A stretch of 64,000 nt of DNA from Roseovarius sp. Its GTDB lineage: Bacteria > Pseudomonadota > Alphaproteobacteria > Rhodobacterales > Rhodobacteraceae. The DNA is taken from positions 1 through 64,000 of the forward strand of contig JAOSKR010000002.1 of the NCBI GenBank assembly GCA_027493545.1, read 5' to 3'. This document shows positions 7,874 through 29,511 of this stretch, piece by piece (within the stretch, counting starts at the first letter, position 1; each line of letters begins with the position of its first letter). The translations under genes and the position numbers were made by a program. The notes under the pieces were generated by a model. That model was not told where the DNA came from, made no database searches, and was given only the letters and a program-made list of their open reading frames with translations.

Positions 7874-8764
7874 TCAGCCCGCCCCGCCCAGCCAGCGAAA
7901 GACCACATTTGCAACATATCTGCCCGACGACGGAATTGCGCGGGTCAGGAAATAGCTCTGCCGGGCCAGCAGTGTCTTGCGTGAAAGAGCAACCAGTCGG
8001 CCCTCGGCTATCAGGTCCTCGATCAACGGCAAAGTGCCGAGTGCGATACCATGGCCGCGCAAGCAGGCCTCGATCATCAGGGCCGGATCGTCGAAAATCC
8101 ACTCGTTGGCGAACTCGCATGTGTCGACCCCGGCCATGGAACACCAGTTCCGCCGGGCAGCGACGCTCCCCTCGTGAAGAAGGCGATACTCGCTCAACAG
8201 GTCCAACTGATCTTCGACCATGCTCGAACTCAGCAGTGCCGGGCTGGCAACCGGCGTCTGGTTGACCGACATCAGCTTCACGCCTTCGAACCCGTCGGGT
8301 ATTTCGGCGCCCCAGTGAACCGCGATGTCCACCTCACGGGAAAGCTCGGGGCGATCCTCGGTTGCATTGATCAGGCGGATCTCGATCCCCTGATTGGCCG
8401 AGGTGAACCGCTCGATGCGCGGGAGCAGCCAATGGGCGCAGAACAGCGGCGGGGCAGAAATGGTGATCGTTCCCGACAGGTCCCGGTCTTCCGTTTCGGA
8501 GACAAGACCGGAGAGGCCGGCAAAAGCGCCCTTGGCCACCCCGAACACCTGTTGCCCGCGTCTGGTCAGGATGAGCCCCGACCGTGTCCGCCGGAACAGG
8601 GCGGTGCCGAAATAGGTTTCGAGTGCCTTCACTTCGTGGCTGACCGCGCTCTGGGTCAGCGACAGCTCTCTTGCGGCAGCCGAAAAGCTGCCATGCCGCG
8701 CCGCGGCCTCAAAGGCGCGCAGGGGATAGAGCGGCGGAAGGCGTCGGGACAAGGCAAGCCTCAT
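7874..8764 (-). CDS. LysR-family regulator (GcvA-like), LysR-1
   Basis: A 296-residue LysR protein. The N-terminal winged helix-turn-helix is PLRAFEAAARHGSFSAAARELSLTQSAVSHEVKALE (residues about 15-50), followed by a substrate-binding domain of the GcvA type. It is transcribed divergently from the flavoprotein gene at 8858 with a 93-bp gap. A dyad, ATGAA-N5-TTCAT, spans its own start codon. It probably senses a substrate or intermediate of the adjacent flavoprotein/aldehyde-dehydrogenase/racemase operon and represses itself. The gene is intact. Confidence 0.88.
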   Translation of the reverse strand: MRLALSRRLPPLYPLRAFEAAARHGSFSAAARELSLTQSAVSHEVKALETYFGTALFRRTRSGLILTRRGQQVFGVAKGAFAGLSGLVSETEDRDLSGTITISAPPLFCAHWLLPRIERFTSANQGIEIRLINATEDRPELSREVDIAVHWGAEIPDGFEGVKLMSVNQTPVASPALLSSSMVEDQLDLLSEYRLLHEGSVAARRNWCSMAGVDTCEFANEWIFDDPALMIEACLRGHGIALGTLPLIEDLIAEGRLVALSRKTLLARQSYFLTRAIPSSGRYVANVVFRWLGGAG

Positions 8765-8777
8765 GAATTTGCTTCAT
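8763..8777. promoter_or_regulatory. candidate LysR-1 operator dyad
   Basis: ATGAATTTGCTTCAT is an inverted repeat (ATGAA/TTCAT, 5-nt spacer) overlapping the LysR-1 start codon in the divergent intergenic region. LysR-type regulators usually bind such dyads. The assignment rests on position and symmetry only. Confidence 0.35.
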
Positions 8778-8857
8778 ATGCCCCGTGAGGATTATCCGTA
8801 CCCGCCTGCCGGGGCAAATCATCTATCTTTCCGGAGGATGTCGGGAGAGGCGGACGC

Positions 8858-11198
8858 ATGATGCAGAACGCGGCAGAGGCTCTTATCATCGGCGGCGGCG
8901 CGATCGGATGCAGCGTTGCCTATCACCTGACGAAGAAGGGCTGGAACAATGTCGTCTTGTGTGAGCAGCATGACTTCGCCACGGGCGCGACAGCCTATGC
9001 CGCGGGAAATGTCATTCTCTACACGCTCAACGCGACGATCAGCCGGCTAAACCAGTATGGTGTCGAGCTTTATTCTAGGCTCGAGGCCGAGACCGGCCTC
9101 TCTCCGGGTTATCACGCCTGCGGCAATCTGAGACTGGCCACGCACCCGGACCGGATGGACGAATTTCGCCGCTACATGGGCATTGCCGAGGCGACCGGCG
9201 TCGAGGCGCGGCTGCTGACCCCCGAAGAGATCGCCGCGCTCTGGCCGCTGATGAAAACCGATGGTGTGCTGGGCGGGCTTTTCAACCCGCGCGACGGGCA
9301 TATCGCGCCGGCCGATCTTGCGCAGAGCCTTGCCGCGGGTGCGCGCAAGGGCGGCGCGCGGCTCTTGCGCAACTGCGAAGTGACGGCGCTGTCGCAAGAG
9401 GATGGCGGGTACTGGAACGTCACGACCTCGCAAGGAGCGATCCGTGCGAAACATGTCATCAGCTGTGGTGGAAACCATTCACAGCGCATCGCGGAAATGG
9501 TCGGCCTGACCGCGCAGTCCGTTCCGGTCCGGCACCAGTATTTCGTCACCGAACCGCTGGCCGAACTGAGCGCGCGGCGGGCGGCGAGACTGCCGGAAAT
9601 GCCGGTCATGCGTGATCCCGAGGACGTCTTTTACTGCCGACAGGAAGGCGATGCCCTGACGGTCGGGGCCTATGACGGGCGCGGCGAGGCGCGCTTTGTC
9701 CACGACGCGCCATCCGGCCCGGCCGAGCCCTTCCCCGACGAGCTGGAAAAGCTGCTGCCCTACCTGGAGCGTGCGATGGAGCGTATCCCGGCATTGGGCC
9801 GCGCGGGTGTGCGCCGGGTGGTGAATTATGCCATGCCCTATACGCCCGACGATCTGCCGACGACCGGCCCCGCCTTCGGGCTGACGAATTTCTGGCTGGC
9901 CGAGGGCAATCCTTTCGGCATCACGCTGGCCGGCGGGATCGGCTGGCAGCTGGCGGAATGGATGACGCACGGCGCGCCGTCGATCGACATGTGGGCCTGC
10001 GATTCCCGCCGTTTCGGGGACTGGGCATCGCGCGAATGGTCGGCGCGCAAGGTCGAGGAAGCCTATGAACATACCTACCTGCTGCCCAAGCCCGGCGAGG
10101 AACTGCCCGCCGCGCGCCCCTTGCGCACGACGCCGATCCACGACCTGCTGAGCGCGCGCGGCGCGCGTTTCGGGGTTGTCGCCGGCTGGGAGCGGCCGAA
10201 CTGGTTCGCACCCGACGGAGTGGAGGATGCACCGTCTTTTGCAAGACCGAACTGGTTCGAGACCGTCGGCGCCGAATGCCGCGCGGCCTTGACGGGGACG
10301 GTTCTGGCCGATGTCAGCCACAATGCCGTCATCCGGGTTTCGGGCAGCGGGGCGAGCGATTTTCTGGGCCGGATCTTTTCCGGCGACCTGCCGCGGCCGG
10401 GTCAAGGCGGCGCCGTGACAGCGCTGAGCGCGCGCGGGACGTTCGCCGCCGAGGCCGAACTGGTCTGCGAGGCGCCCGAGCGCTACACTCTGACGGGCGC
10501 CGCCGTGTCCGAGCGATATCTCCTTGATATCCTGCGACGGCAGGCACCGCAGGCCGGCCTGCGTGTCGATAACCTCACCGGACGGGTCGGGGCGCTGATG
10601 CTGTTCGGCCGGACCGCGCGCGACCATCTTCTGGCCGCCGCCGGCATGACGCCGGCGGATGCGGATTTGTCCCCTTGTTCGGTGGGGACGGTCATGGTCG
10701 GCTATGCCCGAGTGCAGGTGGTGCGCTGCGATCCATTCGGGTTCGAGGGCTACCGCCTTCAGGTTGCGCCGGACCTGTTGCGCCACGTGTTTCTGGCGCT
10801 TGGCGATTGCACCCTGATCGGTGCCCGCGCGCTTGAATGCCTGCGGCTGGAGCACGGCGCCCCCGTCATGGCCGAGCGAGCTGAATGTCGAGGTGACGCC
10901 GGGGGATGTGGCACGGGCCCCGGATGCTGCGCGCCATCTGCTGCATCTGGAAATCGACGGTGATGAAACGATCCCGCACGGGCTTGAACCAATCCGCGAC
11001 AGCCGCGGGCGTATCGTCGGGCGGACAACCTCGGCGGGCTGGGGCCATCTGAGAGGCAGGGCGCTGGCCCTTGCACTGGTCGAACCGGGGGCGGACGATC
11101 TGGAGATCTGCGTGATGGGACGCTGGCACAAGGCCGGCCCCACGCACGGCTATCACAATGCCCGGGGACGCGGCATTCATGAAAAGGAAACGGCATGA
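8858..11198 (+). CDS. FAD-dependent DMGDH-like oxidoreductase with GcvT domain (one frameshift)
   Basis: Residues 1-360 form a DAO-type FAD domain (Rossmann motif IIGGGAIGCSVAYHL), followed by an FAO_M-like linker and a GcvT-type aminomethyl-folate domain from about 430 to the end. Such proteins oxidise N-methyl groups of dimethylglycine- or sarcosine-like amines and can pass formaldehyde to tetrahydrofolate. The histidine that carries FAD in the GSTWHAAG motif is replaced here (GATAYAAG). The frame shifts near 10870 and the C-terminus continues as LNVEVTPGDVARAPD to 11198. The stop overlaps the next ATG (ATGA), so the two genes are coupled. Confidence 0.85.
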
Positions 11199-12650
11199 AC
11201 CGACCAATGAAGGATTACTGGAAAAACTACATCGGCGGGAAATGGGTCGATGGATCGGACGGCGGCAGGGTCACACTGCTGAACCCGGCCACCGGCAAGC
11301 CGCTGGCCGAGGCCGCCCGGGCAACGGCTGCGGACGTGGACAGTGCCGTTGCCGCTGCCCGCAAATGCGTCCGCTCGCGGGCCCTGGTGGACATGCGCCC
11401 GATGGATCGCGGCCGGATGGTTTCCGAAATGGGCCGTCTCCTGCGCGCCCGAACGGAAGAGATCGCCACGCTGATCTCGCTCGATGCCGGCAAGCGGATT
11501 TCCGAGGCGCGCGGCGAGGTCGAGGGATCAGCCAAATACTTCGAATATTACGGCGGTCTCGCCGCCCGCATCGAGGGGCGATACATCCCGCTCGGCGGCG
11601 GCTATGTCGATTTCGTGGTGCCCTATCCTTACGGCGTCAGCGCCCATATCATCCCGTGGAACTTCCCGCTGAACATGATCGCGCGCTCGATGTCGGCGGC
11701 GCTGGCGGCGGGCAACGCCTGCGTGGTCAAGCTGCCCGAGCTTGACCCGACCGCAGGCTATGTGCTGGCGGAGCTGGCCGAACAGGTCGGCCTTCCCGAA
11801 GGAGCCGTCAACCTGATCTGCGGGCTCGGGGAAGAGGCCGGAGCGGACCTTGCCAGCCATTCGGACATCGACCAGGTGGTATTTACCGGGTCGGTGGCCA
11901 CCGGCCGCAAGGTGGCCCATGCGGCGGCTGAAAGCCTGATCCCCGCGGTTCTGGAACTGGGGGGCAAGTCGCCCGGCATCGTCTATGCCGATGCCGACAT
12001 GGACAACGTGATCGCAAATACCCAGGCCGGCATCTTCATGAATTCGGGGCAATGCTGCGATGCCATGTCGCGCCTCGTCGTGCATGACAGCGTCTATGAC
12101 GAAACCATCGACCGCCTCGGCGAGATGGCGAAGGGGCTCAGCATCGGAGCCGGCATGGACGACCCCGACATCACGCCGCTGATTTCGGCCGAACAGCTTG
12201 CCCGCGTCGATAACTACGCCCAGATCGGCGTGCAGGAGGGGGCCCGGGCGATTGCCGGCGGGCGCAGGATCGATCGTGACGGGTTCTTCATGGCGCCGAC
12301 CATCCTCGTGGACGTGGACCCTTCGTCGCGCGTCAATAAGGAAGAGATCTTTGGCCCGGTCCTGTCGGTTCTCAGGTTTTCCGATCCGCGCGAGGCGGTC
12401 GAGATTGCCAATGGCACCGAGTTCGGGCTGGCGGCGGTGGTCTTTACCAACGATCTCGATCGAGCGATCTGGACGACCGAGCGGCTGGATGCCGGTCAGG
12501 TCCATGTCAATGAATGGGGTGTGGGCGGTGTCGAGACGCCATTCGGCGGCTTCAAGAATTCGGGCATCGGCCGCGAGAAAGGGGCCGAGGCGCTGGCGAG
12601 CTACTACCAGTCGAAAAACGTCGGCATGAAGCGCCTGCAATCCTTTTTGA
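11195..12650 (+). CDS. NAD(P)-dependent aldehyde dehydrogenase
   Basis: A classical aldehyde dehydrogenase of about 485 residues. Visible motifs are IIPWNFPLNM, VFTGSVATGRKVA, the general base in LELGGKSPG, and the catalytic-loop cysteine in NSGQCCDAMSR. The ORF track fuses it to a downstream racemase (747 aa). In the T5 run at 12644-12648, removing one T gives KRLQSF followed by TGA at 12648-12650, a natural end for this family. It overlaps the flavoprotein gene by ATGA and probably oxidises an aldehyde made in the same pathway. Confidence 0.88.
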
Positions 12651-12703
12651 ACGAGGTGTCGGCACCCGCGATCCGGGGGCCGACTGCTTGCGGAGCAACC
12701 GCC

Positions 12704-13438
12704 ATGATCTACAAGGCAACTCAGGGCCGGGATATTTACGGCGCCCCGGTGGGCGTCATCGTCATGGATTGCCTGATCCCCTATCCGCCGGGCACCCCCG
12801 GCAATGCCAGCACCTTCGGCTTTCCGGTCCTTTTTGAGATTGTCCGGGGCGCGACGATGGAGAGCCTGATCTACACGCCCTCGGCGGAACTGGTGGAACC
12901 ATTCATCGAGGCGGGTCGCCGTCTGGTGGCGCAAGGGGTCAGGGCGGTGTTCGGGAATTGCGGTTTCATGGTTCTCTTTCAGGAGGAGATGGCCGCCGAG
13001 CTTCCGGTTCCGGTCTTCATGTCCAGCCTGCTGCAACTGCCGCTGGTTGCACGCGGGCTGGCGCGCGGGCAGTCGGTCGGCATCATCTCGGCCAGCGCCG
13101 CATCCCTGACCCCGCGGCACATGGAGATCGCGCTTGGCGGGGCGACCGCCAGTTTCCATATAGCGGGGCTCGAGGCCAGGCCCGCATTCAGGGCCGCGGT
13201 GCATGACCAGTGCGGTTCGCTCGATTTCGATGCGGTCGAGGCCGAAGTGGTCGCGGCGGCCTGCGATCTGATCGCCGAGCATCCCGACATCCGGGCCCTG
13301 CTGTTCGAATGCACCGACCTGCCGCCCTATGCCCATGCGGTTCAGCAGGCCACCGGCCTTCCGGTCTATGATGTCTCGACGCTGATCGACTATGGGGCGG
13401 CGGCGGTAACGCGGACGCGGTTTTCAGGGCATTACTGA
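12704..13438 (+). CDS. aspartate/glutamate racemase-family protein
   Basis: About 244 residues starting MIYKATQGRDIYGAPVGVIVM, with GGAG eight bases upstream, which supports an independent start. The two cysteines expected in Asp/Glu/hydantoin racemase-like enzymes are seen as GNCGFMV and LLFECTDLPPY. The family includes amino-acid racemases, hydantoin racemases and maleate isomerases, so the reaction is open. It follows the aldehyde dehydrogenase by 53 bp in the LysR-1 operon. Its stop overlaps by 7 bp the stop of the convergent LysR-2 gene. Confidence 0.8.
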   Translation: MIYKATQGRDIYGAPVGVIVMDCLIPYPPGTPGNASTFGFPVLFEIVRGATMESLIYTPSAELVEPFIEAGRRLVAQGVRAVFGNCGFMVLFQEEMAAELPVPVFMSSLLQLPLVARGLARGQSVGIISASAASLTPRHMEIALGGATASFHIAGLEARPAFRAAVHDQCGSLDFDAVEAEVVAAACDLIAEHPDIRALLFECTDLPPYAHAVQQATGLPVYDVSTLIDYGAAAVTRTRFSGHY

Positions 13439-14382
13439 ACGGGGTTGCCCGCGGGGCCATGATCCATTCGCGTCCGGTCTGCTTCCACGTCCGCCAGAAG
13501 CCAGTTGGCAAACGCCTTGATCTTGGGATCACGCTCGCGATCGGCCCGATAGAGCAGAGCCCAGTAACCGCGTGATTGTGCCACCAGATCGATCGGCAGG
13601 ACAAGCTGCCGGCTGCGCAGTTCCGTGTCGGCAAAAGGGCCGTTCAGCATGGCCACGCCGGCCCCGTTGATGGCCAGTTCAAGGGCAAGGGCATATGTAT
13701 CGACCTTCTGGTAACGCGGTGAGGGAACCGCATCCACACCCGCAACGGCGAACCAGTCACGCCAGTCATTTGGCGCCGATGATACCTCGATCAACGGCAG
13801 CTTGAGCAGATCGGCCGGTGCCAGCACCGGGCTGAGTGTCTCGAGAAGCCCGGGACTGCAGACCGGAAAGAGGGTTCCGCCGAACAGATGCCGGCTGCGC
13901 AGGCTGGCCGGAACGTCGCGGTCCACATACATGATCGCCACGTCGGTATTGGCTTCGTCGAACCACCATTCCGTTCGCCGCGTATTGAGCGAGAAATTCA
14001 CCTCGGGATGGGCGGCGTGAAACCGTGACAGGCGATGCGAGAGCCAGCGGATCGCGACGGTCACATATGTCTCGGATCTGCAACGCGGCTTGGGATCCGA
14101 GCGGCGCAGGATACCCGCGCCGGTCAGCAGGCTTTCCAATGCCTGCCGGACATATTCGTGAAACAGCCGCCCCTCAGGCGTGAGGACGACGCCGCGCCCC
14201 TCGCGTGTGAACAGCAGACAGCCGAGATCGGTCTCCAATTGCTGGACCTGATGGCTGATGGCGACATGGGTGACGTGCAGTTCCTCGGCGGCGCGACGGA
14301 AACTGCCAAGCCGTGCGGCGGCCTCGAACCCCTTGAGCGCGTTCAGCGGCGGCAGCAGACGATAATTCAGACGCGCGATCAT
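13432..14382 (-). CDS. LysR-family regulator (GcvA-like), LysR-2
   Basis: A LysR protein of about 316 residues when started at ATG 14382 (MIARLNYRLLPPLNALKGFEAAARLGSF). The ORF track start at 14541 would add 53 residues that do not fit the family. The winged helix is FRRAAEELHVTHVAISHQVQQLE. It is divergent from the MttB-family gene, with a perfect 17-bp dyad between them, so that gene is its likely target. The gene is intact. Confidence 0.85.
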   Translation of the reverse strand: MIARLNYRLLPPLNALKGFEAAARLGSFRRAAEELHVTHVAISHQVQQLETDLGCLLFTREGRGVVLTPEGRLFHEYVRQALESLLTGAGILRRSDPKPRCRSETYVTVAIRWLSHRLSRFHAAHPEVNFSLNTRRTEWWFDEANTDVAIMYVDRDVPASLRSRHLFGGTLFPVCSPGLLETLSPVLAPADLLKLPLIEVSSAPNDWRDWFAVAGVDAVPSPRYQKVDTYALALELAINGAGVAMLNGPFADTELRSRQLVLPIDLVAQSRGYWALLYRADRERDPKIKAFANWLLADVEADRTRMDHGPAGNPVQ

Positions 14383-14417
14383 TGCATGGCTCCGATGCGG
14401 TGCGGATATGCGCCAGT

Positions 14418-14434
14418 GGTAATCTGACGTTACC
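14418..14434. promoter_or_regulatory. LysR-type binding dyad between LysR-2 and mttB
   Basis: GGTAATCTGACGTTACC is a perfect inverted repeat (GGTAA/TTACC) containing T-N11-A, the usual LysR-box pattern. It lies about 36 bp from the LysR-2 start and about 90 bp from the MttB-family start, as expected for an activator site of a divergent pair. Confidence 0.5.
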
Positions 14435-14522
14435 AAAGCCGCGGAATCTATCAATTGTCCAAAATCGACGTTGCCCGCAATCTGGCGTGACACGAACGCA
14501 CAGGCCGGAGAGGATGCCCGTG

Positions 14523-16109
14523 ATGCTGGATCAGATTGCAAAGCCCAGGCGTGGTGGACGCGACGCCCGCAGGCTGCTCAGATCATTGCCGCAGGCGGAT
14601 GAAACGAAACCGGTGCGGGGCGGAATGGAGCATGCGCAGCAGTTCCGGCCCCTGAGCGAGCAGGATATGGTGCGCATCCACCGGGCCGCGCTTGACGTGC
14701 TGGAAACCGTCGGCATCGGCGACTGTATTCCCTCGACCATAGAATACCTGACCGGCGTCGGTTGCGTGTTGCATGACAATGGCCGGATAACCTTCCCCCG
14801 CGCGCTGGTCGAGGATTACATCCCGCGGATCAATCGCGATTTCCTGCTGGCTGGGCGCGATCCGCGTCACGACATGCACATGCAGGGCAGCCGGCTTTAT
14901 TGCGGCACTGCGGGCGCCACGGTGAGCATGGTCAATCCGCGCACCGGCGCATACCGCGGCACCACGCTGAACGATCTCTACGACTGTGCCCGCCTGGTCG
15001 ATACGCTGGACAACATCCATTTCTTTCAGCGCACGGTGGTGCCGCGGGAAATCGAAGACTTCTACGAGATGGACGTCAACACCTGCTACGCAAGCCTGGC
15101 CGGGACGTCGAAACATGTCGGCACCAGTTGGGGCGGCGTTCGCCAGCTCGAGGATTCCATCGAGATGATGCACATGCTTGCAGGGAGCGAGGCAAGGTGG
15201 CGCGAGCGCCCCTTCGTCTCGATGTCCTGCTGCTTCACGGTCTCGCCGCTGAAATGGGCCCCCGACAGTTGTCAGTGCCTCGAGGTCGGCGCAAGGGCCG
15301 GGATGCCAATCATGCTGGTGTCGCTCGGTCAGGCCGGCGCGACCGGCCCGGCTTCGCTTGCCGGCAACGTGGTCATGATCCTGGCCGAGTTGCTGGCCGG
15401 GATGATCTACGTCGATGCCGTCGCGCCCGGCAACCCGGTCATCCTCGGGTTCTGGCCTTTCGTGTCCGATCTTCGGACCGGAGCGATGTGCTGCGGAAGC
15501 GGCGAACAGGCGCTGTTGACGGCGGCCTGCGGCCAGATGAGTCGCCACTACGGGTTGATTTCAGGTATTCCGGCGGGGATTGCCGACAGCAAGATGCCCG
15601 ATGCGCAGTCCGGCTACGAAAAAGGCCTCAACCATGTCGTCACCGCCAATTCCGGGGCCAACCTCATGTATGAGGCGGGCGGAATGGTCGCCTCGCTGAT
15701 GGGATTTTCGCTGGAAAGCCCGGCGATGGATAACGATTCTGTCGGGGCGGCGCTGCGCGTGGTGCGCGGGATCGAAGTCAATGACGATACTCTCTCGGTC
15801 GATGTAATCCGCGAGGTCTGCGTCGGCGGGCCTGGCCATTTCCTCGCCCACAGCCAGACCATGAACCTCATGGAGCGCGACTACGTCTATCCGCAGTTCG
15901 CCGACCGGATGAGCCCGGGCGAATGGAAGGAAAAGGGAAACGGGACCGCGCTGGACCGGGCGATCGACCATGTCGATGCGACGCTGGCCCAACATTACCC
16001 GGAATACATCACGCGCGAGATCGACGAGCAGATCCGCGCGAAACTTCCGGTTCGCCTGCGCAAGGATCGAATGCGCCCCAACCTCGATTGGCCGCGCAAC
16101 TGGCCGTGA
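14523..16109 (+). CDS. MttB-family (trimethylamine/betaine) methyltransferase, non-pyrrolysine
   Basis: A 528-residue member of the MttB superfamily (HRAALDVLETVGIGD near the start, TSWGGVRQLEDSIEMM mid-protein, YVYPQFADRMSPGEW near the C-terminus). The frame is open throughout with no amber codon, so it is of the non-pyrrolysine type. Some of these (MtgB-like) demethylate glycine betaine or related quaternary amines with a corrinoid protein. No corrinoid protein or MtgA-like partner is seen in this window. I chose ATG 14523, nine bases after GGAGAGG; ATG 14514 is the alternative. The context of DMGDH-like and Rieske genes supports quaternary-amine catabolism. Confidence 0.85.
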   Translation: MLDQIAKPRRGGRDARRLLRSLPQADETKPVRGGMEHAQQFRPLSEQDMVRIHRAALDVLETVGIGDCIPSTIEYLTGVGCVLHDNGRITFPRALVEDYIPRINRDFLLAGRDPRHDMHMQGSRLYCGTAGATVSMVNPRTGAYRGTTLNDLYDCARLVDTLDNIHFFQRTVVPREIEDFYEMDVNTCYASLAGTSKHVGTSWGGVRQLEDSIEMMHMLAGSEARWRERPFVSMSCCFTVSPLKWAPDSCQCLEVGARAGMPIMLVSLGQAGATGPASLAGNVVMILAELLAGMIYVDAVAPGNPVILGFWPFVSDLRTGAMCCGSGEQALLTAACGQMSRHYGLISGIPAGIADSKMPDAQSGYEKGLNHVVTANSGANLMYEAGGMVASLMGFSLESPAMDNDSVGAALRVVRGIEVNDDTLSVDVIREVCVGGPGHFLAHSQTMNLMERDYVYPQFADRMSPGEWKEKGNGTALDRAIDHVDATLAQHYPEYITREIDEQIRAKLPVRLRKDRMRPNLDWPRNWP

Positions 16110-16464: not shown

Positions 16465-18027
16465 TCACGCGAACCAGACCCGTTCGGATACCCGGCAGCC
16501 CATCAGGCGGGCTACCGCGTCGGTGGTCGCCCCCTGAACGTTCAGGGCATAGGAATCGAGCTCGGCGGGAAACGCGAAGAGGGCGTTGCCACCGTCCCGA
16601 TGCACGATTTCCTGCATCTCCCAGTAGATTTCCTTGCGTTTGTCGAAGTCGGTCTCCGCCTTGCCCGCAACGAGAAGTTCATTGAAGCGATCATTGCTCC
16701 AATAGGCCTCGTTCCAGGGGGCATTCTCGGCGAAGGCGACCGAGAACATCATGCCGGGCGTCGGGCGCACGCCCCAGGCCGACATGCAATAGGGTTTCTT
16801 CATCCAGACATCCGACCAGTAGCTGTCGTTCGGCACCCGGTCGACATTGATGTTGAGCCCCGTTTGTGCAGCGCTGGCCTGCATCAGAACGGCAACGTCC
16901 ACCGCACCGGCATATGCACCGTCCGCGGCGGAAAGGGTGATGTCCAGACTGTCGAGCCCGGCCTCCTTCAGATGCCAGCGCGCCTTGTCGGGATCATAGG
17001 GCCGCTGCGGCAGTTCCGAGTTGTAGAACGGATCAGTTGGCGGGACCGGATGATCGTTGCCCACCGCACCATACCCGCGGTAGATCTTTTCCAACAACTC
17101 GTCGCGGTTGATGGCGTACTTGATTGCCTCGCGCACATTGGCATCATCGAAGGGCGCGGCGCGCGTATCCATCACGCTTTCATGGAATGCGGTGCCGACA
17201 CTTTCGACGATCTGGAACTTGTTCATCGCCTTGATACGATCGACGATCATGTTGTCGGTGCGGTCGATGACATCGACTTCACCGGTCATCAGGGCCGATG
17301 CGCGTGCCGTCGGGTCGAGTATGAACAGCATCTCGACCGAATCCACCCAGCCACGATCCGGCTTCCAGTAGTTGGGATTGCGCGTGGCGGTGAACTGCAC
17401 GCCCGGCTCGAAACGGTCGAGCACATAGGCGCCGGAACCGACGAAACCTGTCCAGTCGTCATGTCCCTCGGGCAGGATCAACAGGTGAAACTGGCCCATG
17501 ATGATCGGAATGTCGGCATCGCCGGTTTCGTGTTCGATGATGACGTTGTCGCCATCGGCACGGATCGAGGAAACGCCCTCGAGAAAGCCCTTGGCGGCCG
17601 ATTTCGAATCCGGCGCGATATGGCGGTTGAGCGACCAGACCGCGTCGGCGGCGGTGACGGTCTTGCCGTTGTGGAACTCCACGCCCTTGCGCATCTTGAA
17701 GACCCAGCGCTTGGCGTCCTTGCTGCCTTCCCAGCTTTCGGCCAGCTCGGGGATCGGCTGCTTGTTCGCGTCAAGCTCGACCAGCGTGTTCCCGAGCGTG
17801 TAGCCTACCGTGTACATGTGATAGGAAAAGTAGGTGGTCGGGTCGAGCGAGTCGCTGGTTCCGCCTTCGGCCTCTCCGATCCTGAGTGTACCGCCCCTTT
17901 GCGGGGTCTGGGCGTGAGCGAAGGATGCACCAAGCGTCCCAGCGGCCAGAACGCCTCCGCCCAGCACACCCAGTGCGCCGCGCCGGGTGAACGGTGGGGC
18001 GTGGAAGCCGTTTCGTCGAGTGGTCAT
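16465..18027 (-). CDS. ABC transporter solute-binding protein (SBP_bac_5, peptide/opine type)
   Basis: A 520-residue periplasmic binding protein of the DppA/OppA class. The twin-arginine-like signal is TRRGALGVLGGGVLAAGTLGASFAHA, and family features include PELAESWEGSKDAKRWVFKMRKGVEFHNGKT and VREAIKYAINRDELL. A strong GGGAGGAG precedes the ATG. No permease or ATPase gene lies next to it, so the transporter must be elsewhere or lost. Position inside the amine-catabolic block suggests a small cationic or amino-acid-like ligand, which is inference. Confidence 0.9.
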   Translation of the reverse strand: MTTRRNGFHAPPFTRRGALGVLGGGVLAAGTLGASFAHAQTPQRGGTLRIGEAEGGTSDSLDPTTYFSYHMYTVGYTLGNTLVELDANKQPIPELAESWEGSKDAKRWVFKMRKGVEFHNGKTVTAADAVWSLNRHIAPDSKSAAKGFLEGVSSIRADGDNVIIEHETGDADIPIIMGQFHLLILPEGHDDWTGFVGSGAYVLDRFEPGVQFTATRNPNYWKPDRGWVDSVEMLFILDPTARASALMTGEVDVIDRTDNMIVDRIKAMNKFQIVESVGTAFHESVMDTRAAPFDDANVREAIKYAINRDELLEKIYRGYGAVGNDHPVPPTDPFYNSELPQRPYDPDKARWHLKEAGLDSLDITLSAADGAYAGAVDVAVLMQASAAQTGLNINVDRVPNDSYWSDVWMKKPYCMSAWGVRPTPGMMFSVAFAENAPWNEAYWSNDRFNELLVAGKAETDFDKRKEIYWEMQEIVHRDGGNALFAFPAELDSYALNVQGATTDAVARLMGCRVSERVWFA

Positions 18028-20750: not shown

Positions 20751-20767
20751 GCGAAAGGGCGCATCAC

Positions 20768-23219
20768 ATGATTCAATCCCACGCCGGGGTCGTCATCATC
20801 GGCGGTGGCATCATGGGGTGCGGTCTTGCCTATCACCTCGCACATGAAGGCTGGAGCGATGTCGTGCTGCTGGAAAAGGCGGAACTGACCTCGGGGTCCA
20901 CCTGGCACGCGGCGGGGCAGATCACCCATTCGACCAGCAGTTTCGCCCTGGGCAAGTGCGTGGGCTACAATATCGACCTTTACTCCAGGGTGCTGGAGGC
21001 CGAGACCGGGCAAGGCGTCACCTGGCACGGCTGCGGCTCGCTGCGGCTGGCCTATACCGATGACGAACTCGACTGGCTGCACCAGACGATCTCGGTCGGC
21101 CGGGGCCTCGGCTTTCCGATGGAGATGGTCGGACCGGACCGCATCCGCGAATTGCATCCCTTCTACAATCTCGATGGCGTCAAGGCGGCGTTGCACACGC
21201 CTGACGATGGCCACGTCGATCCCGCGGGTGCCGCCTTCGCGCTGGCCAAGGGCGCGCGGCAACTGGGTGTCACGGTCATCCGCCAGTGCCGCGCCACCAA
21301 TGTGACGCAGACCGAAAGCGGCGAATGGCTGGTCGAGACCGAGCAGGGCGACATCACCTGCGAACATGTGGTCAACGCCGGCGGCACCTATGCCCGGCAG
21401 ATGGCGGCGTGGTCGGGCTATGATCTGCCCGCGACCTCGATGACGCACCATTACCTGATCACCGATACGGTTCCGGAATTTCAGGCCCTCGACACCGAAC
21501 TGCCGGTGGTGCGTGATGACAGGCTGGTATCGGGCTACATCCGCATGGAGCAGAAATCCGGCCTGATCGGCATCTACGAAAAGGCCAATCCCAACACCGT
21601 CTGGGAGGATCACTGTCCCTGGGACGCCGAACATGAACTGTTCGAGCCGGATTATGACCGGATCATGCCGTGGCTGGAAAACGCCATGGACCGGATGCCG
21701 GTGCTGGCGGAACTGGGCATCAAGCGCGTGGTGCATGGCGCGATCAGCCATCCGCCCGACGGCAATCCGCTGGTCGGCCCGGCGCCGGGGCTGCGCAATT
21801 ACTGGTGCTGCTGCGGCACCCAGATCGGCATCGGCTGGGGGCCGGGCCTGACCCGCGAACTGGCACGCTGGATGGTGCATGGCGCCGCCGATATCAGCAT
21901 GCGCGAATTCGACCCGCGCCGGTTCGGCGCCTATGCCGATCAGGAATTCCAGATCGCCAAGGCGAAGGAAGACTATCTTCTGCGCCATGAAATCCCCTTT
22001 CCGCATTTCAACCGGCTGGATGCGCGCCCGGTCAAACCCTCGCCGCTTCATGAAGACCTCAAGGCCGAGGGCGCGGTGTTCGAGGAAGTGTTCGGCCACG
22101 AGCGCCCGCGCTGGTTTGCGCCCGAGGGAACGGAGGCGCGCGATATCTACGGCTTTCGCCGCACCGCGCTGCACGACATTGTCGGCGCCGAGGTCCGCGC
22201 GGTCCGCGAGCGCGCGGGGATCATGGATATTTCGGCCTTCAGCAAGGTCGAGCTCTCCGGGCCGGACGCCGCGACGTTCCTCGACGCGCTGGTGCCCAAC
22301 CGTCTGCCGTCCGCACCGGGACGCATCGCGCTCGGCCATCTGCTGACCGAGAGCGGCCGGATCGAGTTGGAGATGACCATCGTCCGGCTGGCGGAGGATC
22401 GTTTCTACCTCGTCTGCGCCGCGTTCTTCGAGCAGCGTCTGATGGACATCCTGAGTTTCGCGCGGCGGGGGCGAAAAGGTCACGATCACCAACCGCTCGA
22501 CCGACTGGGGCGCGTTCACGCTCAACGGTCCGCGCGCGCGCGATATTCTGTCCGCCTGCACCGGCGCGGATCTCACGAATGCCGGGTTCAAATGGCTGAC
22601 GGCGCGGGAAATCAATGTCGGTGGCCACCTCCTCTGGGCCTTCCGCATGTCCTATGCCGGCGAGCTGGGCTGGGAGTTCCACGGCCCGCGCGACGCGATC
22701 CCGGGCGCGTTCCGGGCGGTCAAGGCGGCCGGCAAGGCGCATGGCCTGACCAATTACGGATCGTTCGCGATGAACGCGATGAGGATGGAAAAGGGCTTCA
22801 AGGGCGCGGGCGAGCTGACCAACGAGGTGACGCTGCCCGAGGCCGATGTGATGCGCTTCGTGCGCATGGACAAGGACTTTCGCGGCAAGGCCGCAACCGA
22901 GGCGGCGCTGGCCCGGCCCCTGCGCTGGCTCTGCGCCTATCTCGAAATCGACAGCGACGGCATATCCGACGGCAACGGCGGCGAGGCGGTGCTGTCGGGC
23001 GGACGGCAGGTCGGCACGGTCAGTTCCATCGCCTTCGGCCACGCCACCGGCAAGCTGCTGGCCTTCGCCTATGTCGAGGCCGAACATGCCGCGCCGGGGT
23101 CCGATCTGGAGGTCGTCATCATGGCCGAACCGCGCGCGGCAAGGGTTCTGGGCGATCCGGTCTACGACGCCGCAAGCCTGCTGCCGCGAACCGAAGCAAG
23201 CGAGGTGGCGGCGCAATGA
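20768..23219 (+). CDS. FAD-dependent DMGDH-like oxidoreductase with GcvT domain, second copy (one frameshift)
   Basis: About 816 residues: FAD/DAO domain (VVIIGGGIMGCGLAYHL, residues about 8-25), the SGSTWHAAG motif whose histidine carries covalent FAD in dimethylglycine dehydrogenase, an FAO_M linker, then a GcvT-type folate domain (about 440-800). The frame shifts at the G5 run 22467-22471. Removing one G restores RGEKVTITNRSTDWGAF and the rest of the protein. The ORF track instead reads 20702..24292 as one 1196-residue ORF, which is an artefact. The stop overlaps the next gene (ATGA). Likely role: oxidative N-demethylation of a tertiary or secondary amine made by the Rieske enzyme. Confidence 0.88.
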
Positions 23220-24292
23220 GCGACACCATGAAAGCGATGGTGCTGACCGGGCATGGCGGGCTGGACAAGTATGTCTGGCACGACGATTGGCCGAAACCCC
23301 GGCCGGGCCCGATGGAGGCACTGATCCGTGTCGGCGCCTGCGGGCTGAACAATACCGACGTGAACACCCGCACCGGCTGGTATTCCAAGGCGGTCAGCGA
23401 GGCGACCACCGGCGAGGCCTATGCGACGGTGTCCGGGGACGACCCGACCTGGGGCGGTGCGCCAATCACCTTTCCGCGCATCCAGGGCGCGGATGCGGTG
23501 GGCGAGGTGGTCGCGGTGGGCGAGGGCGCGGACGCGGCCCTGATCGGCAAGCGGGTGATGACCGACGGCTGGCTGCGCGACTGGACCGATCCCGACAACA
23601 TGGACAAGGCCGGCTATCTCGGCTCGGAGATCGACGGCGGTTTCGCCGAATTCACCAAAACCGATGTGCGCAACATGGCGGTGGTGGAGTCCGATCTGAG
23701 CGACGCCGAACTTGCGACCTTTTCGTGTTCCTACACGACCGCCGAGGGCATGCTGTCGCGGGCGAATGTCGGTGCCGGTGACACGGTTCTGGTTCCCGGC
23801 GCGTCGGGGGGCGTCGGTGGCGCGCTCGTCCAGCTCGCCAGGCGCCGGGGCGCGCGCGTCATCGCCATGGCATCAGAGGCGAAACATGCCGAGGTGGCCC
23901 GGCTCGGCCCCGACCTCGTCCTGCCGCGCGCACCGGAAAACCTGCGCGAGGCGTTGGGCGGCAGAAAGGTGACGGTCGTGGCCGACATCGTTGGCGGCCC
24001 CTACTGGCCCAGGCTGATCGACATCCTCGAACGCGGCGGGCGCTATACCTGTTCCGGCGCGATCGCCGGCCCGATCGTCACGCTCGATCTGCGCACTTTC
24101 TATCTGCGCGACCTGACCTTTACCGGTTCGACGGTCATTCCGTCGGGCATCTTCAAGGATGTCGTCGGCTATATCGAGCGTGGCGAGATCAGGCCGGTGC
24201 TGGCGGCCACCTATCCATTGAGCGAGCTTCGCCGGGCGCAGCAGGCCTTCATCGACAAGCGCCACGCCGGCAACATCGTGGTGATCCCGTGA
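23216..24292 (+). CDS. MDR-superfamily (quinone oxidoreductase/alcohol dehydrogenase-like) oxidoreductase
   Basis: 358 residues with a GroES-like N-terminal domain (GACGLNNTDVNTRTGWYSK) and a nucleotide-binding fold with GASGGVGGALVQLARRRG at about residues 193-210. Zinc-ligand residues of classical ADHs are not evident, so a zinc-free reductase is more likely. It overlaps its neighbours at both ends (ATGA upstream, GTGA downstream), which places it firmly inside the catabolic operon. The substrate is unknown. Confidence 0.85.
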   Translation: MSDTMKAMVLTGHGGLDKYVWHDDWPKPRPGPMEALIRVGACGLNNTDVNTRTGWYSKAVSEATTGEAYATVSGDDPTWGGAPITFPRIQGADAVGEVVAVGEGADAALIGKRVMTDGWLRDWTDPDNMDKAGYLGSEIDGGFAEFTKTDVRNMAVVESDLSDAELATFSCSYTTAEGMLSRANVGAGDTVLVPGASGGVGGALVQLARRRGARVIAMASEAKHAEVARLGPDLVLPRAPENLREALGGRKVTVVADIVGGPYWPRLIDILERGGRYTCSGAIAGPIVTLDLRTFYLRDLTFTGSTVIPSGIFKDVVGYIERGEIRPVLAATYPLSELRRAQQAFIDKRHAGNIVVIP

Positions 24293-25405
24293 AGATCACC
24301 CGTATCACCGTCTGGGCGCTGGATCTGCCGTTGACCGAGCCATACTGGCTCTCGGGCGGGCGGCTGAAGTTCGAACGGCTCGACAGCACGTTTTTGCGGA
24401 TCGACACCGACAAGGGCGTCAGCGGCTGGGGCGAGGGCTGCCCATGGGGCACCACCTATCTGCCCGCGCACGGGCCGGGTATCCGGGCCGGGATCGCCAC
24501 GCTCGCGCCCGCGATCCTGGGCCGCGATCCGCGCAGCCTGCGGGCGCTGAATGATGCGATGGACATGCAGTTGCCGGGGCATCTTTACGTCAAATCCGCA
24601 ATCGACATGGCCTGTTGGGACATTCTGGGGCAGGTCGCGGGCCTGCCGCTGTGGCAGTTGTTCGGCGGGGACCGCGCCGCGCCGGTGGCGGTGAATTCCT
24701 CGATCTCGACCGGCACGCCGGATCAGATGATCGCGCTCATCCGCAGTGCCAGCCAGAAGGGGTATCGGGTACATTCGGCCAAGCTGGGCGGGCATGACAT
24801 CGCCGCCGACATCGCACGGATAGAGGCAATATCCCACGCCTTGCCATCGGGTGAGAAGGTGACCTACGACATCAACCGCGCGTGGACGCCGGGCGTCGCG
24901 GTGCAGGTGCTCAATTCGGTCACGGCGCGCGACTGGGTGGAACAACCCTGCGAGACGCTGGATCAATGCGCCCATGTCGCGCGCCGCGTGGCCAATCCGA
25001 TCATGCTGGATGAATGCCTGCACAGCTTTCAGGATCATCTGGACGCCTGGCGACTGGGCGCCTGCGAGGGTGTCAAGGTCAAAGCCGAACCGCGTGGGCG
25101 GGCTGACACGCGCGTTGCAGATCCGGGATTTCGGCGTCTCGGTGGGTTGGCAGATGCATATCGAGGATCTGGGCGGCTCGGCCCTTGCCGACACGGCTGC
25201 GATCCATCTGGCAAGTGCCACACCCGAGGCCAACCGGCTGGCCAGTTGGCTTTGCCATTATCACCTGTCGGTCGATCCCGTGCCGGGCCAGGGCGCGCGC
25301 AACGAGGGCGGGTTCGCGACGCCGCCATCGGCGCCGGGCCTCGGCGTTGTCCCCGATCCTGCCCGGCTGGGCGACCCGGTCGCCGTTCATGAGGTGCCAA
25401 GATGA
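24289..25405 (+). CDS. enolase-superfamily (mandelate racemase/MLE type) enzyme 1 (one frameshift)
   Basis: About 371 residues, GTG start overlapping the previous stop. Metal ligands are visible as the Asp in TYDINRAW, Glu in WVEQPCETL and Asp in MLDECLHS; the distal lysine is in VKPNRVGG. In the usual KxK motif the first lysine is replaced (HSAKLGG). The frame breaks at the AAA at 25081; removing one A gives EGVKVKPNRVGGLTRALQIRD. The protein resembles hydroxyproline-betaine epimerase (HpbD) and other betaine racemases in active-site spacing, and the neighbours fit. The stop overlaps the second enolase gene (ATGA). Confidence 0.82.
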
Positions 25406-26504
25406 AGATCACCCGGCTCATGTTCTGGGAGGTGCCCTCACCAGTCACGTCGCCTATCACATGGCCGGCGGCAAGACCTGCGATACGGTCACATCCGTTG
25501 TCTTGCGCGTCGATACGGACGAAGACGTGTCAGGCTGGGGCGAGGTCTGCCCGATCCCGCATTATCTGCCAGCCTATGCCGAGGGCGTGCGCCCGGCGCT
25601 GGAATACCTCGCGCCGGTGCTGATCGGCGCCGATCCGGTCGGACCGGAGGCGCTCATGGCGCGCGCCGACGCCTGGCTGCAGGGCCACCCCTACGCCAAG
25701 TCGGCTCTGGACATCGCGCTTTGGGATATCACCGGGCAAGCGGCGGGGCTGCCGCTTTACGCGCTGCTTGGCGGCCGGCAGGCGGCCGACATGGCGCTAT
25801 ACCACTCGATCACCTGTGTCGCGCCCGAAGAGATGGCGCGCATCGCCCGCGACGCGCAACGCTCGGGCATTACCCAGTTCCAGGTCAAGCTCGGTGCCGA
25901 CAACGACTGGCAGGCCGATGCCGCCCGGCTGCGGCTGGTGCGCGAGGCGGTGGGCGACGGCCCGCTCGTCTACGGCGACTGGAACTGCGGCGCGACGCGG
26001 CTCGATGCCACGCGGGTCGGCAGGGCGGTGGCGGGGCTCGACGTCATGCTCGAACAGCCCTGCGCGACCCTCGAGGACTGCGCCGCCGTGCGCGCCGCGA
26101 CCGGTTTGCCGATGAAGATCGACGAGAACGGGCATGACACCGCGTCGCTTCTCAGGGCTCATGAACTGGGCTGCATGGATGCGGTTGCGTTGAAGTTGTC
26201 GAAGTTCGGCGGGCTTTCGGCGTCCCGCCGGGCGCGCGATCTCTGCCTGCATCTCGGGCCGCGGATGTGCATCGAGGACACCTGGGGATCGGACATCACG
26301 ACCGCCGCACTCCTGCATCTTGCCGCCGCGACACCGGAGCGGGCGCTTCTCAACACCTGTGACCTTTCGGGCTATGTCGCGCCGCGCCTCGCGCCCGGGG
26401 CACCCACCCGCCGTGACGGGCGCATCGCCCCGCCCGACGGGCCGGGCCTCGGCGTCGCGCCCGACCCCGACACGCTCGGCCAGCCCGTGGCCATCATCGA
26501 CTAG
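25402..26504 (+). CDS. enolase-superfamily (mandelate racemase/MLE type) enzyme 2 (one frameshift)
   Basis: About 368 residues and a tandem paralogue of the preceding gene, with the same MKITR start. Metal ligands are in VYGDWNCG, LEQPCATLEDC and KIDENGHD, and the distal lysine is in ALKLSKFGGL. The first lysine of KxK is again replaced (FQVKLGAD). Early in the gene one C is missing from the CCC at 25435-25437; adding it gives WEVPLTSHVAYHMAGG. Its active-site blocks resemble HpbD-type betaine epimerases as I remember them. Two different epimerases in one operon suggest the route handles both stereo-forms or two substrates. Confidence 0.82.
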
Positions 26505-26514
26505 GAGATGACCG

Positions 26515-27797
26515 ATGCCCGACAAGGCCCCGATGAAGGCCCTCGCCGAACGCGCCCGCGCCGTGCTGCCCGCGGGCGGTTTCGGCAATTTCGACCCATC
26601 CATCTTCATCCGCGAGGGCCACGGCGCGCGCGTTCTTGACGAGGACGGACGCGAATATGTCGACTACCTGATCGGCTCGGGGCCGATGCTGCTCGGCCAT
26701 GGCCATCCGGAGGTGCTGGAGGCTGTGGCCGAACAGTTGCCCAGGGGCATGACCTTTTTCGCCAACAACGCCGCCGGCCTGGAACTGGCGGAGGAAATCT
26801 GCCGCGCGGTGGCCTGCGCCGAACAGGTGCGTTTTCTCGCCTCGGGTGGCGAGGCGGACATGTACGCGATGCGTCTTGCGCGCGCCTTTACGGGCCGCGA
26901 CAAGATCCTCAAGTTCGAGGGCGGCTATCACGGCATGTCGGCCGAGGCGCAGATGAGCCTTGCGCCGACACGGCTGGTGAATTTTCCGCAAGCGGTGGCC
27001 GACAGCGCCGGCATTCCCGAGGCCGTGCGCGGCGAGATGCTGATCGCGCCGTTCAACGATCCCGAATACCTGGAAAGCCTGCTGGCCGAGCATGGCGACC
27101 AGATCGCCGGACTCATCGTCGAACCCCTGCAGCGGATCATCCCGCCCGAGCCGGGATTTCTCCTCACGGTGCGCAACCTGTGTGATCGCTACGGCATCGT
27201 GCTGATCTTCGACGAGGTCGTGACCGGTTTTCGCCTCGCCTATGGCGGCGCGCAGGAAGTCTATGGCGTGACACCCGATCTCTGCACGCTGGGCAAGGTC
27301 ATCGGCGGCGGCTTTCCACTGGCCGCGGTGGCGGGGGCGCAAGGATATCATGGACCATTTCGACAAGGCCATCGTCGGCGCCGACAAGTGGCTGATGATG
27401 CTCGGCACGCTGTCGGGCAATCCGGTCGCCGCCGTGGCGGGCCTGAGGACGATGGAAATCCTGCGCCGCGAAGGCGCCCATGACCGCCTGCACGGGTTCG
27501 GGAAGCGCCTGCAGGCGATGTTCGCAAAGCACCCTCAATGCTGCCGGCGTGCCCCACCGCATCGTCGGCCATCCGGCGCTTTTCGACGTGGTCTTCACAA
27601 ATCGCGAGGTCAGGACCTACCGCGATGTCCTCGCCGCCGATGGCAAGAGGAACGCCGCCTTCAACGCGGTCCTGCGCGAGAATGGCGTCTTCAAGTCGCC
27701 GGGCAAGCTCTACCCCTGCCTTGCGCTGACCGAGGCCGATCTCGATCTGACCGACGCCGCAATCGCGAAAGCCGCGCAAGCCGTGGCCGAGGAGTGA
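26515..27797 (+). CDS. class III aminotransferase (glutamate-1-semialdehyde mutase-like; two frameshifts)
   Basis: About 425 residues, PLP fold type I. Seen are LIGSGPMLLGHGHPEVLEAV, KFEGGYHG, the PLP-aspartate block LIFDEVVTGFR and TLGKVIGGGFP with the Schiff-base lysine. The first break is at G5 27333-27337 (removing one G gives GRKDIMDHFDKA) and the second at CCC near 27533 (removing one C gives AKHLNAAGVPHRI). AGGAGA stands before the ATG, and the gene closes the RpiR-facing operon. It probably transfers the amino group of a demethylated intermediate. Confidence 0.85.
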
Positions 27798-28353
27798 GTT
27801 CGGGCAATTCGACGGCAATGACGACGATCCGATCCGTGACGCGAGGGATCGACTGCGACGCGAAGGCCCGCATGATGATGGGCCGTCTGCATGATGGCCT
27901 GTCTGCCCGAAACCGCCCGGTTTGGGCTGTAAGATGTGGTAGAAATAAGCGCTGCAACATATGGTGGGAGGTAAGGACATGGCGATGGTCCGGGCAATGA
28001 TTTCGACTGGACGATCGAGAGTGCAGCCGCGCCCTTCACATCTTTTGCCGTTATTGTGACACGCAACCTTTCCAAGTCAGGGCGGTTACGGACGCCGAAC
28101 GAACGAGCGGCATCGGCAACAATGTGATCATCGCGGGGAGGAGGGGTTGCCTGCACTAATGCAGATCAGGTATGAACGAGCCACATAAGGGCTCAAGGGC
28201 AGTAAGAAATCCGTAAAGGCCGGGACAGCAACTGCATCCGGCAAGAGCCGATGAAGCACGACCGAGACTGGTAACAGCTTGCAGGCAGCTTTGTCTGGCC
28301 GGCATCCGGCTGCCAGCAATCGTGACCCCACCAAAGGAACCCTTGATCAGCGC
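27798..28353. other. intergenic stretch of about 0.55 kb without a supported gene
   Basis: ORFs on both strands (for example 27710..28156 minus) lack recognisable domains and sit partly antisense to the aminotransferase. I see no tRNA. The 3' edge adjoins a strong hairpin in front of the GcvT-like gene. Confidence 0.45.
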
Positions 28354-28380
28354 GGAGGCCGCAAATCGTTGCGGACCTCC
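28354..28380 (+). promoter_or_regulatory. strong leader hairpin upstream of the GcvT-like gene
   Basis: GGAGG-CCGCAA-ATCG-TTGCGG-A-CCTCC forms an 11-bp stem with one bulged base and a tetraloop, 31 nt before the ATG at 28412. It lacks a following T-run, and the gene's ribosome-binding region lies just beyond. It may be a leader element or the end of a longer structured RNA. I could not match it to a glycine riboswitch. Confidence 0.4.
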
Positions 28381-28411
28381 TCAGAGAGTAGTCCGGGAAA
28401 GGACCTGAAAA

Positions 28412-29511
28412 ATGACAGATCGTATTTTCGCTCTTGAGGACGAACATAGTGCCCTGGGCGCAGAGTTCATGGACTGGAACGGCTTGAAGCTGGCTGCGAA
28501 CTATTCCGGGATCACGACCGAACAAGAACATGACGCGGTGCGCGATGCAGCCGGAATGTACGACCTCACCGCGTTCCGCAAGCTATGGCTCAGGGGGCCC
28601 GATGCGCGCGCGGTTCTGAACCGGGCCTGTACCCGCGACATCACCGGGCTCAAGCCGAACAGGGCCACCTATACCTGTGTTCTGACTGCCGACGGTGGGG
28701 TGGTCGATGACAGCGTGGTTTTTGCACGGCCAAGGACGAATTCCTTTATGTCATCGGCACCGGTGACAGTGGCGAGGTCATTGAGAACATCGCCAAGGGC
28801 AAGGATGTCGAGCTGACATGGGACAATTCGCTTCAGCTCATGTCGCTCCAGGGACCGAAGGCAGTCGATATCCTGGCGCCGAACACCAGTGGGGACGTGC
28901 CCGGGTTGAAATTCTTCCATCAGATGGACACCCAGCTGTTTGACCGCGACGTTATGATCGCGCGCGTCGGATATTCTGGTGAGCGCGGCTATGAGATCTA
29001 TGCCAAGCCTGAAGATGCGCCACAAATCTGGCGCAACCTGCTCGACGCCGGCAAGGAACACGGTATCCAGCCTTGCTCGTTCGCCAGCCTGACGCCGGTA
29101 CGTGTTGAGGCTGGCCTGTTGTTCCACCCCTTTGACGTCAACGAGGACACGACCCCTTGGGAAGTCGGTCTTGGATTTACCATCGACAAGAACAAGGGCG
29201 ACTTCGTCGGTCGGGATGCCGTTCTGGCAAAGGAAGGCAAGGAACGTTTCATGACCCGCGGCGTCTCGTGCCCGTCGGACAAGCCGATTTTCGAGGGCGA
29301 AGAGGAGCTTTATCGCGACGGCAAGAAGGTCGGCACCATCGTCACCTCCGCCTATTCGCACCGCATGAAGAAATCGCTTGCCTTCGCCTATCTCGATCCG
29401 GACGTGACCGAGGGGGCGACACTGACGGTTGGCAAGAATGCCGGCGCTCGGGAGGTCGCTGTCGAGGACCTGCCGTTCTACGACAAAAAGAAGAAGAGGC
29501 TGCGCGCATAA
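28412..29511 (+). CDS. GcvT-family tetrahydrofolate-dependent methyltransferase (one frameshift)
   Basis: About 367 residues with GcvT fold features: GMYDLTAFRKLWLRGPDARAVLN, RVGYSGERGYEIY and PWEVGLGFTIDK in the folate domain. Stand-alone proteins of this length include DMSP demethylase (DmdA) and other folate-dependent demethylases besides the glycine-cleavage T protein. The glycine-cleavage H and P genes are absent here, which argues against the classical role. One base is missing near 28725; restoring it gives TAKDEFLYVIGTGDSG. Likely role: moving a methyl group from an N-, O- or S-methyl substrate to folate. Confidence 0.8.

Follow-up and report, generated by a model that had tools for sequence, protein, structure and literature searches.

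Two gene modules of putative betaine-type catabolism at one Roseovarius locus, one rare and one widespread in the Rhodobacteraceae

Does a cluster of betaine-type genes near the start of a Roseovarius sp. contig form one catabolic system, and what might it degrade? The window, meaning the whole stretch that was analysed, covers the first 64,000 nucleotides of contig JAOSKR010000002.1 (assembly GCA_027493545.1), here called C2, in a genome of 3.33 Mb over five contigs, and the block in question occupies positions 7,874 to 29,511. A preliminary description had suggested that this block could be a compact, betaine-type catabolic unit. Family searches recover all of the gene families that it named, including two flavoproteins resembling dimethylglycine dehydrogenase (DMGDH) with GcvT domains, a Rieske oxygenase, an MttB methyltransferase and two enolases, along with three regulators, two of them GcvA-like LysR proteins and one an RpiR protein (Table 1). 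The block holds up as a conserved cluster with much betaine-type chemistry, but it is not a single unit. It is made up of a rare set of genes, module A, and a widespread set, module B, which we propose are two linked enzyme sets.

In module B, a carboxymuconolactone-decarboxylase-like (CMD) gene, the Rieske oxygenase and the RpiR regulator diverge from DMGDH2, an MDR-family reductase, the enolases Eno1 and Eno2 and a class III aminotransferase; the module was seen in 46 inspected loci. The clustering is far beyond chance, because the same gene order repeats in dozens of genomes. About 57 of 394 Rhodobacteraceae genomes, sampled at roughly one per genus, encode an Eno2 orthologue (66–86% identity), the next group of matches being distinctly lower at 44–46%. 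At low frequency, such orthologues extend to four or more further families within the class. The module is found on two Roseobacter-group plasmids as well. Mapped by tblastn, and with counts that depend on the thresholds chosen, the 46 loci all contain the Rieske oxygenase and Eno2, while RpiR and DMGDH2 are present in 44 each and the aminotransferase in 41, with another class III aminotransferase in a further three. These five genes are a nearly invariant core, and the smallest set that stands alone consists of exactly them (e.g., loci L061, L062, L083 and L091). Accessory members include CMD and the MDR reductase (29 loci each), an Eno1-type enolase resembling the solved structures 2qdd or 3eez (28), a 2rdx-like enolase (18), the dimethylsulfoniopropionate (DMSP) lyase DddQ (17), aldehyde dehydrogenase (14) and a formaldehyde-activating (GFA) protein (13). 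The GcvT-like methyltransferase at 28.4 kb, which the preliminary description had counted as a cluster member, was dropped from the system, as it has only weakly similar counterparts in two of the 46 loci. On plasmid pTHAF8_b of Roseovarius sp. THAF8 (L016:20354-25151), a complete ABC transporter with a family-8 solute-binding protein lies downstream of module B, together with an AraC-type regulator with a DJ-1/PfpI-like domain; it is possible that these genes hint at the module B substrate.

The DddQ proteins of module B carry PF16867 and match solved DMSP lyases. They are often encoded in tandem pairs and, in most of the loci that bear them (including L064, L066, L068, L075-L077, L082, L086, L088, L093-L095, L097, G395, G397 and others), are placed after the MDR gene, the two being adjacent in at least 15. 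A published precedent exists: an MDR gene neighbours dddQ in Ruegeria pomeroyi and the dddQ1/dddQ2 pair in Roseovarius nubinhibens (PMC3338564). One could therefore propose that the function of module B is chiefly DMSP-related, as a dddQ cluster whose enzymes would work on a sulfonium compound or on what it breaks down to. This is very unlikely in our judgement, since 29 of the 46 loci, including the window copy, have no DddQ, and the chemistry of the DMGDH, aminotransferase and Rieske enzymes is directed at nitrogen. Additionally, the MDR gene of the R. nubinhibens dddQ cluster did not correct acrylate sensitivity (PMC3338564).

The active-site residues of module B fit quaternary-ammonium chemistry. 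Eno1, Eno2 and the third enolase found in some loci retain both lysines and the three acidic ligands of the betaine epimerase HpbD (the Lys/Asp/Glu/Asp/Lys set). According to Zhao and co-workers, writing in 2013, HpbD is said to bind the quaternary nitrogen through Tyr56 and Trp320, and this pair is complete in Eno1 and in every Eno1-type copy. In Eno2 copies, Cys-Asp replaces Trp320-Leu, and the third enolase has Thr-Asp at this place. Thus, Eno1 may act on quaternary amines and Eno2 on less methylated ones. While all residues of the HpbD-type 2-epimerase are present in Eno1, and Trp320 is absent from Eno2, neither enolase is close to HpbD itself.

These residues raise the question of whether the block encodes a variant of the proline or hydroxyproline betaine route, in which an HpbD-like epimerase and a Rieske demethylase would be followed by demethylation of N-methylproline. 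The complete HpbD pair and catalytic set of Eno1 would suit this route, and the best-scoring model for each enolase is that of cis-3-hydroxy-L-proline dehydratase, NF043002, although at scores under its cut-off (303 bits for Eno1 and 357 for Eno2, against 500). The known hydroxyproline betaine route proceeds through a cis-4-hydroxy-D-proline oxidase, a DHDPS-family deaminase and a ketoglutarate semialdehyde dehydrogenase (PMC4113996). None of these three, the oxidase being of the D-amino-acid oxidase (DAAO) type, was found among the block genes or the recurrent families of the 46 module B loci, and for this reason we do not file the block as a hydroxyproline betaine pathway; the preliminary description had likewise set it apart from such clusters. 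The conserved aminotransferase would also be left without a function if the substrate were a cyclic imino acid, and a better HpbD candidate (63% identity) is encoded elsewhere in the source genome. We consider this variant unlikely.

The Rieske enzyme has the carnitine oxygenase CntA as its nearest solved relative, and equivalents of CntA Tyr203 and Glu205 are present in all 46 copies and in the window, within an NYSE or NYNE motif. A bridging Glu205 together with an aromatic residue at 203 defines clade Va of the quaternary-ammonium Rieske group V (PMC7948474). By its residues, the module B enzyme would be placed in this clade. DMGDH2 matches the DMGDH structures 4pab and 4p9s over its full length (E 1e-147), and the motif GSTWHAAG is conserved in 44 of 44 copies. 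We take the histidine of this motif to be the flavin-attaching residue of DMGDH, and of the two DMGDH-like proteins in the block, DMGDH2 alone combines the FAD and GcvT domains with this histidine. Among relatives of the aminotransferase, glutamate semialdehyde aminomutase (5i92, E 2e-81) comes first and D-phenylglycine and beta-amino acid aminotransferases lower down, so that its sequence does not point to one substrate. The genomes G394-G397 each encode 11–19 DMGDH-like flavoproteins (E <1e-50); this family is unusually big, and its members probably act on different substrates.

Module A has the order LysR-DMGDH1-ALDH-racemase-LysR-MttB, where ALDH is an aldehyde dehydrogenase. The MttB gene is an open frame with no in-frame TAG and its product exceeds the PF06253 cut-off, which places it in the non-pyrrolysine MttB superfamily, as first suspected. 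Its best solved relative is a glycine betaine methyltransferase (9yce, E 4e-59); from this likeness to MtgB, methyl transfer from glycine betaine is at most predicted. DMGDH1, with DMGDH 4p9s as its best solved relative, has GATAYAAG where DMGDH has GSTWHAAG, and its copies read GATAYAAG or GATAFAAG, so that the histidine is lacking. ALDH is closest to betaine-aldehyde dehydrogenases, yet falls below the cut-off of that family (430 of 668 bits). The racemase-like gene is a variable member, present in the window and in locus L010 (83% identity) and undetected in L011-L013, whereas ALDH is 87–88% identical in L010-L012 and 70% in L013, and MttB 85% and 70%, respectively. Orthologues of DMGDH1 in L010 and L011 are 67–68% identical, and those of LysR1, which scores 225 bits on the NCBIfam GcvA model (cut-off 288), occur at 66–67% in the equivalent place in L010, L011 and L012.

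Module A was found in four other genomes, three near relatives and one Ruegeria atlantica strain, and the nearest named MttB relatives, at 85%, are from Defluviimonas sp. WL0075, Defluviimonas salinarum and the metagenome-assembled genome Rhodobacteraceae bacterium HKST-UBA115. Module A is rare, because no other MttB above 54% identity was present in a draw of 295 family genomes, again about one per genus; the plasmid collection held none above 51%. An MttB enzyme requires a corrinoid protein and an activator. Both are present in the cell, although neither lies within the block: a free-standing MtgC-like corrinoid protein is encoded on contig C5, flanked by an MtgE-like gene of the betaine-homocysteine methyltransferase family and a DUF1638 gene, and a RACo/RamA-like activator on contig C3. 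The source genome has about ten MTTB genes, and in R. pomeroyi several MTTB paralogues are proposed to share one MtgC (PMC12478193). A second betaine-type locus of the source genome (C2:428060-433592; L163, L002) contains an MttB, an MDR reductase, a 71-aa enolase fragment, two SDR proteins and the enolase that is 63% identical to HpbD (4h2h), at C2:429.5-430.6 kb. MttB-enolase-MDR neighbourhoods therefore recur within this genome, in two loci.

What ties the two modules together is their distribution. All four of the other module A genomes have a DMGDH2 orthologue (74–90%) and a full module B, compared with about 15% of family genomes overall, and in G395 both modules and the solute-binding protein (76% identical and adjoining module B) lie within 23 kb, free of stops, in a relative order unlike that of the window. 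We propose, with confidence that is about evenly poised, that the block comprises two linked enzyme sets that degrade a chiral betaine-type compound, an amino acid whose nitrogen is methylated, by stepwise N-demethylation, epimerisation and then transamination. Eno1 would epimerise the quaternary ammonium compound, and the Rieske enzyme would open the attack on the quaternary nitrogen with release of formaldehyde or another aldehyde. DMGDH2 is proposed to remove further N-methyl groups oxidatively and pass them to tetrahydrofolate, Eno2 to epimerise the less methylated amine, and the class III aminotransferase to take off the amino group, leaving an oxo-acid. Module A may supply a second, oxygen-independent first demethylation, in which one methyl group would go by way of MttB to MtgC, the corrinoid protein shared within the cell, DMGDH1 would oxidise the remaining methyls and the aldehyde dehydrogenase would handle an aldehyde product; in the loci that have it, GFA together with ALDH would deal with aldehydes. 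We infer these reactions from the observed gene content, conservation, co-occurrence, linkage, active-site residues and presence of corrinoid partners, while their order and a substrate common to both modules are guesses.

Several points weigh against this proposal. Three of the four genomes in which the modules co-occur are closely related, so that this evidence comes partly from one lineage, and module B mostly occurs in genomes that have no module A. MttB is thus not an obligate partner in the combination. DddQ, a lyase, is not accounted for by simple demethylation in the 17 loci where it occurs. Group Va Rieske enzymes of known substrate attack carnitine, choline or benzalkonium, not necessarily by demethylation, while the tested Rieske demethylases GbcA and Stc2 belong to group Vb; in addition, no Rieske reductase was found within the cluster, and DMGDH1 is devoid of the flavin-attaching histidine motif.

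The same distribution would suit two separate pathways lying side by side, with module A acting through MttB on one compound and module B through the Rieske enzyme on another. Each module has its own regulators, and the two are on separate stretches in L010, L012 and L013. On the other hand, module A was never seen without module B, and both the window and G395 have them as neighbours, with their arrangement reversed between the two. We regard separate pathways as a serious possibility, albeit one that we do not favour. Returning to two linked sets, a bolder version can be offered as tentative and somewhat doubtful: module B would be an undescribed pathway for a chiral marine betaine, in which DddQ acts on an intermediate and not on DMSP, and module A a corrinoid-dependent, oxygen-independent entry to it.

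Could the block instead be a set of decaying pseudogenes? Compared with intact orthologues, seven 1-nt shifts interrupt six genes (DMGDH1, DMGDH2, Eno1, Eno2, the aminotransferase twice and the GcvT-like gene), and an IS21-type transposase lies at 30433. The shifts mostly sit at short G or C runs, however, the catalytic residues are intact, and no substitution to a premature stop was seen in the block genes. A frame-tracking model, which recovered six of the seven shifts, found 2.8–4.3 frameshift-like breaks per 10 kb of coding sequence in stretches sampled from the source genome, on every contig sampled, versus 0.12 in a same-genus genome and none in six stretches of other Rhodobacteraceae; mean open reading frame length gave no sign of them. 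Because the excess of indels is genome-wide, decay is rejected as highly improbable, and the shifts are probably sequencing errors in the assembly, with the genes intact in the organism. The apparent fusion of ALDH to the racemase-like gene, one continuous frame in the window and two separate genes in L010, and the split GcvT-like gene are probably artefacts of the same kind. Gene fragments from this indel-rich assembly need cautious reading in general.

Within the block, the gene order runs from LysR1 to MttB, through the solute-binding protein to the minus-strand half of module B, and then, across the RpiR/DMGDH2 gap from which the halves diverge, to the plus-strand half, with the GcvT-like gene beyond a further gap. 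The overlapping joints reported earlier are confirmed at three sites, ATGA at 19788-19791 (RpiR/Rieske) and 23216-23219 (DMGDH2/MDR) and GTGA at 24289-24292 (MDR/Eno1), but the divergent strands do not allow a single operon: the solute-binding protein, CMD, Rieske and RpiR genes run opposite to DMGDH2-MDR-Eno1-Eno2-aminotransferase, and both LysR genes are also on the minus strand. The flanks at 1–7 kb and 30–39 kb resemble mobile or eroded DNA, with a Mutator-family transposase remnant on one side and the IS21-family transposase on the other, and a tRNA-Gln gene nearby. A reverse transcriptase in the window, with a DUF3800-type C-terminus, is a candidate anti-phage enzyme.

Table 1. Features of the block and its surroundings in the window.
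Feature	Position	Strand	Remarks
Mutator-family transposase remnant	886-1992	-	flank
LysR1, GcvA-like LysR regulator, module A	7874..8764	-	Pfam HTH_1 + LysR_substrate
DMGDH1, FAD oxidoreductase + GcvT flavoprotein, module A	8858..11198	+	frameshift near 10863
Aldehyde dehydrogenase, module A	11195..12646	+	no stop ahead of racemase frame
Asp/Glu racemase-like, PRK07475 subfamily, variable module A member	12704..13438	+	NF005679 273 bits (cut-off 231)
LysR2, GcvA-like LysR regulator, module A	13432..14382	-	family searches
MttB-superfamily methyltransferase without pyrrolysine codon, module A	14523..16109	+	PF06253 344.5 bits (cut-off 25)
Family-5 ABC solute-binding protein	16465..18027	-	PF00496
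CMD, carboxymuconolactone-decarboxylase-like, module B	18267..18659	-	PF02627
Rieske oxygenase alpha subunit, module B core	18661..19791	-	CntA Tyr203 + Glu205 equivalents
RpiR-family regulator, module B core	19788..20699	-	PF01418 + PF01380
DMGDH2, DMGDH-like flavoprotein with GcvT domain, module B core	20768..23219	+	frameshift near 22468
MDR-family reductase, module B accessory	23216..24292	+	family searches
Eno1, MR/MLE enolase, module B accessory	24289..25405	+	2qdd, E 3e-199; frameshift near 25083
Eno2, MR/MLE enolase, module B core	25402..26504	+	4mgg, E 7e-87; frameshift near 25437
HemL-like class III aminotransferase, module B core	26515..27800	+	PF00202; two frameshifts; 3' end approximate
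Stand-alone GcvT-like protein	28412..29511	+	one frameshift; outside conserved module
IS21-family transposase	30433-31521	+	flank
tRNA-Gln	32843-32917	-	
Reverse transcriptase with DUF3800-type C-terminus	35175-36938	+	PADLOC RT-DUF3800_VII-A1, 933 bits

Methylated nitrogen compounds are major marine sources of carbon and nitrogen, and the Rhodobacteraceae are major consumers of them. A nearly invariant five-gene core that is present in about 15% of the sampled family genomes, with no substrate assigned to it, is a sizeable gap. Module B also brings into one genomic setting the enolases of the 2qdd, 2rdx and 3eez slots, whose structures are solved but whose functions are unassigned, and DddQ, the DMSP lyase that is used to flag dimethyl sulfide production. 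The module offers a route to finding the true targets of both the cluster and DddQ. If it is true that DddQ mainly serves the module B pathway, gene counts based on dddQ would have to be read anew.

How does the block compare with known systems? Clusters for 4-hydroxyproline and proline betaine that contain the HpbD epimerase were reportedly described by Zhao and co-workers in 2013 and by Kumar and co-workers in 2014. Module B resembles them in its Rieske oxygenase and in a putative epimerase of the MR/MLE type that has the Tyr/Trp pair for betaine binding, but it differs in having two or three enolases, a DMGDH-type demethylase and a class III aminotransferase. The glycine betaine/methionine system MtgBCDE of R. 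pomeroyi (PMC12478193) likewise uses an MTTB-family methyltransferase, and homologues of MtgC, MtgE, DUF1638 and RamA are present in the source genome, while the block MttB is of a distinct subfamily and is set among DMGDH1, ALDH and two LysR regulators. Among CntA and the group V Rieske enzymes (PMC7948474), CntA is the closest solved structure to the block enzyme, which has the Tyr203 and Glu205 residues in common with it, but no reductase gene adjoins the block gene. DMGDH2 matches dimethylglycine dehydrogenase (4p9s, 4pab) over the whole length, including GSTWHAAG, and is unlike it in being clustered with a Rieske oxygenase, enolases and an aminotransferase; DMGDH1 differs by its missing histidine. 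The parts therefore belong to known families, and the combination is provisionally undescribed as a pathway in the open literature searched, in line with the preliminary description, except that one part of it, dddQ beside an MDR gene, had been noted before (PMC3338564). In the literature searched on the surroundings of R. pomeroyi dddQ, only SPO1593 and SPO1596 are mentioned, and the functions of the neighbours are not stated. The published dddQ clusters share the MDR-DddQ adjacency of module B loci (PMC3338564), and the enolase slots of module B correspond to orphan enolases of solved structure (2qdd, 2rdx and 3eez). From this adjacency and these structure matches, the published dddQ clusters would appear to be copies of module B.

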